A stretch of DNA of 53,072 nucleotides. Origin: Polaromonas sp. 39-63-25. Lineage in GTDB: Bacteria > Pseudomonadota > Gammaproteobacteria > Burkholderiales > Burkholderiaceae_C. How positions within the stretch are numbered: position 1 is the first letter of the stretch; the number at the start of each line of letters is the position of its first letter. This document shows positions 1,609 to 46,263 of the stretch, one piece after another. The stretch lies in assembly GCF_002278925.1 (NCBI RefSeq), contig NZ_NCJH01000020.1, forward strand, positions 1 through 53,072, read 5' to 3'. Both the position numbers and the translations under genes were made by a program. A model generated the notes under the pieces. It was not told the DNA's origin. It worked only from the letters and a program-made list of their open reading frames with translations, and did no database searches.

Positions 1609-1664
1609 AGAAAATCGACTCAAGCCCTGATGGGGCGTGCGTTATCAGCTCATGTATTCATAGC
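1609..1664 (-). repeat. 56-bp palindromic repeat, copy 1
   Basis: This copy, read on the minus strand, starts GCTATGAATACATGAGCTGA and ends with the GGGCT block. It keeps the family-invariant GCT at positions 1-3, AGC at 15-17 and CGC at 24-26. It lies just after the GntR gene. The family is described in the findings. Confidence 0.8.
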
Positions 1665-1670
1665 ATCCAG

Positions 1671-1689
1671 AGACGGCGGCATGCCGTCT
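1671..1689. other. Small hairpin between convergent genes
   Basis: A perfect 7-bp stem (AGACGGC/GCCGTCT) closes a 5-nt loop between the GntR gene and the rubredoxin gene, which face each other. There is no T-run on the plus side. It may help end transcription, but it is not a classical terminator. The rest of the 1585-1819 spacer holds only the 56-bp repeat. Confidence 0.35.
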
Positions 1690-1819
1690 TCTGACAACGG
1701 CTCCAGGGCGCGGCACGACGTCACGGCGCCACCGCCGCCAAGCCGAGCAGCCGGAGTACGCCCGACACCCGCTGCTCATCGGACATGGCGGGGTGGTCCG
1801 CCGCTTAACCGTGAGGTGT

Positions 1820-1984
1820 TCAGATCAGCACCATGGTGAAGTCGGCCTTGCCGACATTGCATTCCGGACAGGCCCAGCCTGCGGGCACCGCGGCCCAGGG
1901 CGTTCCCGGGGCGATGCCGTCTTCGGGCCGGCCGGCCGCTTCGTCATAGATAAAACCGCAGACGACGCACATGTAGACGTTCAT
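1820..1984 (-). CDS. Rubredoxin
   Basis: A short gene encodes 54 residues with two Cys-x2-Cys pairs at C6/C9 and C39/C42, in the contexts MCVVCGFIYD and WACPECNVGKADF. These bind the single iron of rubredoxin, a small cytoplasmic one-electron carrier. The aromatic core residues Y4, Y13, W30, W37 and F49 are in family positions. A GAGGAA ribosome site lies just before the ATG. It follows the cytochrome b561 gene by 41 bp on the same strand, so it is probably the last gene of the cytochrome operon, perhaps as an electron donor or a stress-response carrier. No rubredoxin reductase is seen here. Confidence 0.93.
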   Translation of the reverse strand: MNVYMCVVCGFIYDEAAGRPEDGIAPGTPWAAVPAGWACPECNVGKADFTMVLI

Positions 1985-2025
1985 GAATTCCTCACTGAAG
2001 ATGATGGGAGCCGGACGCCGGTTTG

Positions 2026-44071: not shown

Positions 44072-44500
44072 ATGCTCTGGGTCAAATCACTCCACATCGT
44101 TTTTGTCGCCAGCTGGTTTGCGGGCCTGTTTTACCTGCCGCGTATTTTTGTCAACCTGGCGATGGTGCCGCCGGAAAGTCTGGCCGAGCATGAGCGCCTG
44201 ATCCTGATGGCACGCAAGCTTCTGCGCTTCACCACGATCCTGGCCGTGCCCGCGCTGGCTTTCGGCCTGTGGCTGTGGCTGGGTTACGGCATAGGGCGCG
44301 GCCCCGGCAATGGCTGGATGCACGCCAAGCTCGTCATCGTGGCCCTGGCCCTCGGCTACCACCATGCCTGCAGCCGCATGTTGTCGACCTTTGTGGCCCG
44401 GCGCAACACCCGCAGCCACGTGTGGTGGCGCTGGTTCAACGAAGTTCCGGTGCTGCTGTTGCTCGCTGCGGTGATCCTGGTTGTGGTCAAGCCGTTCTAG
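44072..44500 (+). CDS. hemJ: Protoporphyrinogen oxidase HemJ-like membrane protein
   Basis: This 142-residue inner-membrane protein of the HemJ/UPF0093 family has four helices. HemJ oxidises protoporphyrinogen IX to protoporphyrin IX late in heme synthesis. Family features are [22 protein letters not shown] with H8, and the [10 protein letters not shown] motif with H84 and K86. The neighbouring divergent gene is hemB, which supports the call. No ribosome site is seen before ATG 44072, because a GC-rich repeat abuts it. A TTG at 44066 is another possible start. Confidence 0.9.
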
Positions 44501-44518
44501 CATCACAAGGCCGCCAGC

Positions 44519-45823
44519 GTGCCATCCCCGCCTTCACCAGCAGACGCGAGCGAACCGGCTTTGCCGGGCGCCATGCGTCGCCCCCTGCAAGGGGGGGCAG
44601 AACTACACGATGCGCAGCATCGTGAGGATGTCAGGGGTGTGCCACCTCTTTCCCTGGAAGGGGATAAGGAACGACACGCAGCGAAGCGGAGTGCGGACGA
44701 TAGGGGTGAGCCAACTGCCTCCTGGCCGCTGGCACTGGCCACGGTCTGCCTGATTGTTTATGCCAGCCTCTACCCGTTTGCCGAGTGGCGCAACCAGGGC
44801 ATCTCGCCGCTGACCTTTCTGACGGCGCCCCTGCCGCGCTACTGGACCGGTTTTGATGTGGGCATCAACCTGGCCGGTTACGCGCCGCTGGGTTTTCTGC
44901 TGGCCCTGGCGGCGCTGCGCAGCGGCCGCACGCGCTGGGCGGTCACTGTGGCCGTGCTCGGCGCGGGCACCCTGTCGCTGGTGATGGAGTCGCTGCAAAG
45001 TTACCTGCCTGCGCGCATTCCCTCCAATGTCGACTTTGTCCTGAACACGGCCGGGGCCTGGCTGGGCGCCTGCAGCGCCTGGCTGCTGGAGCGGGCCGGT
45101 GCGATGGACCGCTGGAGCCGCTTTCGGGCGCGCTGGTTTGTGCGCGACGCCCGGGGTGCGCTGGTGCTGCTGGCCCTGTGGCCGGTCGCGCTGCTGTTCC
45201 CGGCCTCGGTGCCGCTGGGTCTGGGGCAGGTGCTGGAACGGCTGGAGTACGCGCTTGCCGACGTGCTGGCCGATACGCCGTTTCTCGAGTGGCTGCCGGT
45301 GCGCGACATAGAGCTGCAGCCGCTGGTCCCCGGCGTCGAAGTGATCTGTGTGGCGCTGGGCGCGCTGATTCCCTGCCTGCTCGGCTACTGCGTGATCCGC
45401 ACCTTGCTGCAACGCGCTGTTTTCCTGATGCTCACGCTGGCGGCCGGCATCGCGCTGACCGCCCTGTCCGCCGCGCTCAGTTACGGCCCGGACCACGCCT
45501 GGGCCTGGCTGGACCTGCCGGTGCGTGTCGGCCTGATCATGGGCGGCGTGCTGGCCGTGCTGCTGCTGCCGGTGCCGCGCCGGGCCGCCGCCGCGCTGCT
45601 GCTGCTGGCGCTGAGCATTCATTTGTCGCTGCTCAACCAGGCCCCGGTCGGCCCCTATTTCGCAGAGACCCTGCAGATCTGGGAGCAGGGGCGGTTCGTC
45701 CGTTTCAACGGTCTGGCGCAGTGGCTGGGCTGGCTTTGGCCTTATGCGGCCGTGCTGTATGTGCTGGTGCGTTTGTCCAGCCGTCGGGCCGCCGACGCCG
45801 GCGAAAGTAAAATCGAGGCATGA
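44519..45823 (+). CDS. VanZ-family membrane protein with repeat-derived N-terminus
   Basis: This polytopic membrane protein has about nine helices and a VanZ-like region at about 70-185 (YPFAEWRNQG, GFDVGINLAGYAPLGFLLA, NVDFVLNTAGAWLG). Function is unknown. The frame is open from GTG 44519, but the first roughly 70 residues (44519-44725) are low-hydrophobicity, charged and derived from a GC-rich repeat-like segment. The first helix begins at about residue 70. The true start is uncertain: the next in-frame ATG is 44573 and none lies just before the first helix. Its stop overlaps the ferredoxin-like gene by 4 nt. Confidence 0.75.
   Translation: MPSPPSPADASEPALPGAMRRPLQGGAELHDAQHREDVRGVPPLSLEGDKERHAAKRSADDRGEPTASWPLALATVCLIVYASLYPFAEWRNQGISPLTFLTAPLPRYWTGFDVGINLAGYAPLGFLLALAALRSGRTRWAVTVAVLGAGTLSLVMESLQSYLPARIPSNVDFVLNTAGAWLGACSAWLLERAGAMDRWSRFRARWFVRDARGALVLLALWPVALLFPASVPLGLGQVLERLEYALADVLADTPFLEWLPVRDIELQPLVPGVEVICVALGALIPCLLGYCVIRTLLQRAVFLMLTLAAGIALTALSAALSYGPDHAWAWLDLPVRVGLIMGGVLAVLLLPVPRRAAAALLLLALSIHLSLLNQAPVGPYFAETLQIWEQGRFVRFNGLAQWLGWLWPYAAVLYVLVRLSSRRAADAGESKIEA
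44521..44725. repeat. GC-rich repeat variant, copy G
   Basis: It shares GCGAACCGGCTTTGCCGGGC and a C-run/G-run hairpin (CCCCCTGCAAGGGGGGG) with the other copies, but its 3' part differs (a CACGATGCGCAGCATCGTG stem-loop). It overlaps the apparent N-terminus of the VanZ-like gene. Confidence 0.55.
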
Positions 45824-46170
45824 CCCCACCCAGCGCACCCCCCGGCTCCTATTACGAGCGGCACATCTTTTTTTGCCTGAATCAACGCGACAGCGGTGAA
45901 GACAGCTGCGCCAACCACAAGGCCCAGGAAGGGTTCGACCGCTGCAAGGCGCAGGTCAAGGCGGCCGGCCTGGCCGGACCGGGCAAGGTTCGTGTCAACA
46001 AGGCCGGCTGCCTGGACCGCTGCGCGGCCGGGCCGGTGGCCGTGGTCTACCCGGAGGCGGTCTGGTACACCTATGTGGATGCACAGGACATCGACGAAAT
46101 TGTCGAGTCCCACCTGAAAAACGGCCAGGTGGTCGAGCGGCTGCTCACCCCCCCGCATCTGGGGCGCTGA
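45820..46170 (+). CDS. Thioredoxin-fold [2Fe-2S] ferredoxin-like protein
   Basis: This 116-residue cytoplasmic protein has the HIFFCLNQR start typical of (2Fe-2S) thioredoxin-like ferredoxins. Four cysteines, C19, C30, C64 and C68 (KAGCLDRCAAGP), are in positions suited to bind one [2Fe-2S] cluster; C42 is extra. The VVYPEAVWYTYVD strand and a C-terminal helix complete the fold. Its electron partner is unknown. It overlaps the VanZ-like gene by 4 nt, so it is translated from the same mRNA. Confidence 0.9.
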   Translation: MTPPSAPPGSYYERHIFFCLNQRDSGEDSCANHKAQEGFDRCKAQVKAAGLAGPGKVRVNKAGCLDRCAAGPVAVVYPEAVWYTYVDAQDIDEIVESHLKNGQVVERLLTPPHLGR

Positions 46171-46207
46171 GCCCGCGCCCCGGGGCCCGTCGACGATGGT
46201 TTTGGCA

Positions 46208-46263
46208 TGTTTTATGGCTCCAGCCTTTATGTGACGGGCGCAAACAGCTACTTTTTTTATAGC
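46208..46263 (-). repeat. 56-bp palindromic repeat, copy 10
   Basis: This copy, read on the minus strand, starts GCTATAAAAAAAGTAGCTGT and contains TGCGCCCGT and AAAGGCTGGAGCC. It is intergenic, between the ferredoxin-like and hydrolase genes. Confidence 0.88.

Follow-up and report, generated by a model that had tools for sequence, protein, structure and literature searches.

The 53,072-nt contig NZ_NCJH01000020.1 of Polaromonas sp. 39-63-25, analysed here over its full length (the window), carries a short repeat that recurs in high number in the host genome, between genes as well as inside them. The genus fits the nearest named relatives, one host protein being 96% identical to that of a Polaromonas MAG. 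We give an even chance to the reading that this repeat is a REP-like (repetitive extragenic palindrome) element, the non-autonomous passenger of a resident transposase of the RAYT (REP-associated tyrosine transposase) or TIRYT type, across relatives within the GTDB family Burkholderiaceae. The initial annotation had aligned ten window segments over 56 positions without gaps, with GCT at 1-3, AGC at 15-17 and CGC at 24-26 invariant in all ten and a GGGCTGGAG-like block, and our alignment reproduced each of these features. Nine of these segments belong to a single repeat of ~66 bp, the segment inside gatA (11629) being doubtful. The proposed length of 56 bp was too short, since the unit conserved in a profile of 104 copies runs from about position -3 to 66.

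The spaced triplets GCT-N11-AGC-N6-CGC occurred 18 times in the window, compared with 2.1 times (sd 1.5) in 100 third-order Markov shuffles. A strict eleven-base pattern (GCTA-N9-TAGC-N6-CGC) matched 342 times in the 4.83-Mb host genome and 6 times when reversed as a control. An iterated profile seeded with the ten copies found 129 copies in 573 kb of host DNA, where the strict pattern had 74 matches, and none in the same DNA reversed. In a model search of the host genome, 150 of the 3761 first-look candidates were scored and all of these had E values below 1e-5. Because the 573 kb (about 12% of the genome) were chosen mainly around profile hits, they overestimate the density at 225 copies per Mb; 120 kb taken in full from a single contig contained 24 copies (200 per Mb) and the window 10 (188 per Mb). 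Scaled from the pattern and profile figures, the host genome should contain about 600 to 1000 copies. The abundance of the family that the initial annotation had envisaged is supported. Copy strand did not agree with GC skew in the host genome (r -0.22, 21 stretches). A replication strand bias was also rejected in other genomes: listings with only the + strand for several genomes with large contigs were taken as an artefact, since stretches of two of them (G453, G437; genomes and loci are referred to by G and L numbers) held both strands.

In the 104 copies the unit reads, in order, YGCTAYNRAWTNRATAGC, TGCYT, GCGCCCG...AAGGGC, TGGAGGCCNATTTNA and a tail of A. It comprises a 17-bp palindrome, GCTAYNRAWTNRATAGC, followed by a spacer, a second and mostly GCGC-bounded palindrome, and then TAGNGGCCNATTTNA...AAAA. 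At position 13, 70% of the 104 copies have A and 28% have G, and the GC content of the repeat is 51%. When copies from another Polaromonas and from eight genomes outside the genus were compared (5 to 17 per genome), the inner arms of the second palindrome were genome-specific, e.g. GCGCTTG/CAAGCGC or GCGCCCG/CGGGCGC, and the frame around them was common to all. The GCTA/TAGC hairpin proposed for positions 1-17 survived as a palindromic consensus and failed as a paired structure: the arms showed no covariation among the 104 copies, and complementarity of the pairs 5-13 and 8-10 was not above that of shuffles. Linkage between positions was mainly confined to about five bases, and hence no subfamilies were seen in the host genome. 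Pairwise distances between copies were more variable than full independence predicts (24.6 vs 11.6), and the sample contained 4 pairs of symmetric, double-armed copies.

Copy number is patchy among relatives. Match counts in 397 genomes of the family ranged from 0 to 505, with at least one match in 205 genomes and, by hand tally of the count table, at least 40 in 68 genomes from 27 genera; as the reversed control yielded as many as 39 matches per strand in certain genomes, low counts mean little. One further Polaromonas had 568 matches, and sister species of one genus (g77) had 311, 0, 406, 0, 488 and 44. Twelve other families of the order, represented by one genome each, gave 0 or 1 match. 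All comparisons of copy-rich and copy-poor genomes below ignore phylogeny, and G004/L062 and G272/L066 appear to be the same genomes, so that they are not independent.

Copies inside protein genes

Among the 129 copies, 61 were intergenic, 19 reached into a gene by no more than 12 nt, 38 lay inside called genes and 11 overlapped a 3' end. About 30% of the copies were within called genes, in both orientations (18 on the same strand as the gene, 20 on the opposite one); the 38 include the doubtful gatA copy and one (L053) that begins 3 nt before the called start, and the gene calls come from a home-made caller prone to start genes after a repeat. Reading-frame bias was strong. Of the 20 opposite-strand copies, 17 shared a single frame, which yields peptides like NQAAAQETRAPAATEFVA, and the same-strand copies were mainly in two frames (9/18 and 7/18). 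The second of these would read the TAG of the repeat as a stop, but at that codon six of its seven copies encode E and the remaining one K. The repeat TAG served as the stop of 5 called genes.

Four enzymes were each compared in ten genomes, the relatives being hand-picked for high and low copy number. A repeat-encoded segment with a profile hit was present in 4/10 genomes for DapE, 3/10 for MoeA, 3/10 for PurL and 4/10 for HemD; it was eroded in some genomes, while others, among them G013, G069 and G043, had only a short segment or none, and for DapE it was absent in 5/10. Two observations complicate a simple insertion picture, namely the segments of similar length without recognisable repeat in MoeA and HemD of the copy-poor G003, and the native length variation of the PurL loop. 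Because orthologues of all four enzymes in copy-poor genomes have a short, an eroded or no segment, in-frame insertion into proteins, as the initial annotation had suggested by analogy with Rickettsia palindromic elements (RPEs), is supported.

The best-scoring in-gene copy (49.3 bits) was located in a 3-hydroxyisobutyrate dehydrogenase-like gene (L039:13739-14620), inside the Pfam NAD-binding domain, and looks as if it replaced or resembled native sequence rather than being added to it. Genes with two copies each were seen at L192:8681-10057, L054:12823-14091, L195:10172-11506 and L196:14344-17658.

Constraint at fixed sites and the resident transposase

G004, whose identity to the host is about 93%, had the copy at 21 of 23 comparable sites and, at the other two, an interval of equal length without a hit; this set comprised the 32 copies of one 140-kb contig, less 9 without comparable flanks. 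In the direction from G004 to the host, 21 of 22 comparable copies were common to both, 4 of the 26 G004 copies being left out for lack of comparable flanks. There was no insertion difference at the 23 comparable sites, and present mobility is not supported. At the six window copies from 33135 to 46263, the profile had a hit at 6 sites in G004, 5 in G088 (about 81%) and 4 in G272. At about 75% identity some species kept window copies; the copy at 33135 was eroded in G040, and G043 and G073 had no repeat at 33135 and 46208. Shared segments in relatives, which the initial annotation would have counted against its view, were found between close relatives and not between copy-rich and copy-poor species.

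Constraint was counted in 26 orthologous pairs, none dropped; separate averages left out 7 of 19 pairs with misaligned flanks. In 11 extragenic pairs, high-information positions had changed in 17/275 cases (0.062) and low-information positions in 64/231 (0.277; Fisher p 3e-11), and in 15 coding pairs the corresponding counts were 25/375 and 61/315. Fourfold-degenerate sites had changed in 15.3% of 14,184 cases, a rate that was taken from genes of 600 nt or more at 88% identity or above and may understate neutral change, and gapped extragenic flanks in 181/1068. Core positions of the repeat change less than fourfold sites even outside genes, and variable positions change more.

The host genome encodes one PF01797 protein, and when the G324 transposase was used as query, 243 of 250 genomes of the family gave a match at E 0.001 or better, in most cases a single one and at most 6; the query also found the transposase in G217 and G353, where PF01797 had missed it. 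The G324 protein scored 71.9 bits against NCBIfam REP_Tyr_transpos, below the cutoff of 80. In 7 of 51 transposase flanks (G432, G156, G324, G453, G109, G096 and G313, the first three from one genus), a reversed repeat of 10.0-30.7 bits lay directly 3' of the gene, abutting the stop codon and running into the terminal inverted repeat (TIR). Only one comparable score occurred in the 400 bp upstream of the 51 genes, which served as control (G263, 32.8). The junction of GCTAY and TIR was present in 20 of 29 genomes with at least 40 copies, 2 of 5 intermediate genomes and 2 of 14 with fewer than 15 (highest vs lowest class, Fisher p 0.001, kinship ignored); adding by eye G102 and G457, which the pattern missed, gave 21 and 3 genomes and p 0.003. 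At L255, L257, L258, L259 and L260, from several genera, the transposase gene is followed by what looks like the start of gltB (glutamate synthase large subunit), probably a long-conserved locus.

On the REP-like reading, copies would have spread in ancestral genomes by single-strand transposition via the resident Y1 transposase, which seems to retain a repeat copy at its own 3' end in several genera. Insertions would have survived where the frame stays open, at gene ends, signal-peptide-like N termini, loops and linkers. In copy-rich lineages copies may still be tended where they lie, either because binding is selected for or because copies exchange sequence, and where tending stopped they would erode.

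Several points weigh against the transposase as the source of the repeat. PF01797 proteins were about as common in copy-poor genomes (10/12, a set that includes G069 with its copy count unmeasured) as in copy-rich ones (13/14), and presence of a Y1 transposase was therefore rejected as a predictor of copy number. Weak 3' hits in four more genomes (7.6-8.7 bits) were equalled by an upstream hit of 8.3 bits, and the adjacent copy was decayed or missing in the host genome, G004, G272, G017 and others. The TIRs of the transposase (GGGGTCAGA.../GGGGACA...) are unlike the dispersed repeat, and a single chance insertion in an ancestor, passed on together with the locus, may account for the adjacency. 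The orthologous-site comparisons yielded neither an empty site with target duplication, as a MITE should leave, nor a clean recent empty site. General erosion of repeats in copy-poor genomes could create the association of the junction with copy number without causation, and for this reason we hold a role of the transposase at an even chance. Finally, selection on a DNA-binding site accounts for the constraint equally well as tending by the transposase.

It is possible, but rather doubtful, that the repeat is a functional DNA site for a host reader protein, in chromosome organisation or as an uptake-sequence-like motif under molecular drive, so that the transposase neighbourhood would be incidental and loss of the reader would be followed by loss of sites through mutation. 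The independence of positions beyond ~5 nt and the arms without covariation fit such a site, and so do the extragenic core constraint, the stable places and the erosion in copy-poor genomes. However, ~66 bp is long for a motif of this kind, the in-gene copies in DapE and HemD are added segments and not point-mutated native sequence, and the reader protein remains hypothetical.

Less probable still, and unlikely in our judgement, is that a vertically inherited RAYT rewrites the ~600-1000 existing repeats from one another without new insertions, which would keep the core fixed, let variable positions change faster than neutral and make proteins co-evolve with their repeat peptides until the system is lost. 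Changes did cluster within copies (66 adjacent pairs vs 41.6, sd 5.2) and were uneven among copies (p 0.002). However, the excess of adjacent pairs over the null was 2.0x in 20 repeats, 2.1x in 8 extragenic rows and 1.7x in flank rows (29 of 40 kept). As flanks cluster to a similar degree, clustering is no evidence for exchange among copies and was rejected as its mark, and this control lowered our estimate for rewriting.

Quite unlikely is the view that the copies are dead remnants of a mobile repeat that multiplied in a burst long ago, with no present tending; the 23 sites without insertion difference and the erosion in several species agree with it, but relics should change evenly along the repeat, which the contrast between extragenic core and variable positions disfavours. 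An RNA-level element at gene ends (a terminator, RNA-stability or regulatory hairpin) is very unlikely. In its favour, 79 extragenic copies had called genes on both sides, and 25 of these were between convergent and 10 between divergent genes, although the 74,297 intergenic bases comprised 10,500 in convergent and 21,442 in divergent gaps. Against it, in-gene copies occur in both orientations, the ten window copies had no consensus hairpin of note and no Rfam match over any of them, and an RNA hairpin was rejected on the latter ground and on the lack of covariation in the first palindrome.

The window copies

The ten segments are listed in Table 1. The four that the initial annotation had called purely intergenic (1609, 9345, 35545 and 46208) were so by our gene calls, the third overlapping a called gene by one base. 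Of its six coding copies, those at 29200, 33135, 38472, 34396 and 42578 stood, the last two as gene ends, and the one in gatA is probably native coding sequence, given its low score together with the length kept across relatives: the stretch had the same length or 3 aa more in all 15 Polaromonas GatA proteins parsed from 30 loci, including few-copy G043 and G040. Judged by their sequence, the N-terminal regions at 33135 and 38472 read like signal peptides. In G043 and G073 the site at 33135 is 25 nt shorter, the repeat being present there in many others listed, and the unaligned interval at 46208 is 91 nt shorter. A copy was also found 3' of another hemB ending in G031. Beside hemB of the window, 43811-43903 matched the anti-hemB small RNA family of Rfam (RF02837, 53.3 bits).

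Table 1. Repeat segments of the window
Positions	Strand	Location	Basis or remark
1609..1664	-	intergenic, 3' of GntR/FCD gene (856-1584 +)	profile 31.6 bits; Pfam
9345..9400	-	intergenic between convergent genes (8684-9334 +; gatB 9426-10937 -)	26.5 bits
11629..11684	-	doubtful copy inside gatA (10938-12443 -)	16.6 bits although in training set
29200..29255	-	inside LysR-type regulator gene (28717-29703 +), open in frame	Pfam
33135..33190	+	N-terminal region of ABC_trans_aux lipoprotein gene (33120-33815 +)	Pfam
34396..34451	+	3' end of cNMP-binding gene (33794-34411 +); repeat TAG is the stop	
35545..35600	+	between convergent genes (EamA 34474-35514 +; 35600-36238 -)	
38472..38527	-	N-terminal region of Amidohydro_2 gene (38451-39371 +), read from reverse strand	
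42578..42633	-	last codons and TAG stop of hemB (porphobilinogen synthase, 42618-43946 -)	
46208..46263	-	intergenic between 45820-46170 + and 46289-46909 +	

Meaning and comparison with known systems

Selfish DNA that is read in frame within proteins is known above all from Rickettsia, and the accessible text of PMC3733652 adds scattered REP examples from other organisms. As the present repeat spans many genera of one family, with copy-rich beside copy-free species, it allows direct comparison of how copies are inserted, tolerated, maintained and lost, which makes it a good case for how bacteria tolerate and maintain passenger DNA in ordinary enzymes. That the core is kept in place without new insertions raises the question of its maintainer, and the RAYT gene adjacent to one copy is a candidate open to test. 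Extra segments of roughly 10-20 residues should also be borne in mind when Comamonadaceae genes are annotated and their enzymes studied. The initial annotation knew of no description of this family in Comamonadaceae, and our literature search, which fell short of most subscription papers and all bioRxiv preprints, likewise yielded no paper describing it, nor any match for short words of the motif.

Bordetella BREs, as described in the accessible part of Hot et al. (2011, PMC3110155), are 75-91 bp long with 69% GC and at most 29 per genome. They share with the present repeat an overlapping family range that includes Polaromonas, and some coding copies; the repeat here has ~66 bp, 51% GC and hundreds of copies, and GC and length rule out its identity with BRE. 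A separate GC-rich (71-77%) repeat of ~100 bp lies in both orientations at 15538-15638, 25069-25176, 31077-31169 and 43960-44066 of the window and several times in related Polaromonas loci. These GC-rich repeats are likely the published BRE, to which we liken them by description, not by sequence.

GTAG REPs are 20-40 bp long and carry GTAG at one end, a tag that more than 90% of the members have conserved in most families. They occur inside open reading frames (ORFs), also in free-living species such as Thauera, and supply TAG stops (PMC3733652, in the parts accessible). High copy number, downstream and convergent sites, in-ORF copies, TAG stops and perhaps the neighbourhood of a tyrosine transposase are shared with the present repeat. 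However, the latter has mostly ATAG at the corresponding place, inside its own palindrome, and a longer unit, and does not form the GTAG hairpin. The main text of PMC3733652 does not mention Delftia, Acidovorax, Polaromonas, Variovorax, Comamonas or Rhodoferax. As in the TIRtrons/TIRYT of the same source, so far as its accessible text describes them, the transposase here stands between inverted GGGGTCAG/GGGGACA motifs that fit the GGGGWSAS consensus, but the dispersed repeat is not the TIR and, where present, occupies the interval from the stop codon to the 3' TIR.

RPEs are palindromic and occur in frame inside conserved protein genes as well as between genes, as the accessible parts of PMC2229807 and PMC3733652 describe, and two of them, RPE-4 and RPE-6, correspond to short CGTC REPs (PMC3733652). 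They measure 105-146 bp and form long hairpins (PMC2229807), whereas the present repeat has ~66 bp with two short palindromes and no long self-complementary hairpin of that size, and is found in free-living genera in hundreds of copies. It resembles RPEs in its presence both in frame in protein genes and in intergenic DNA.

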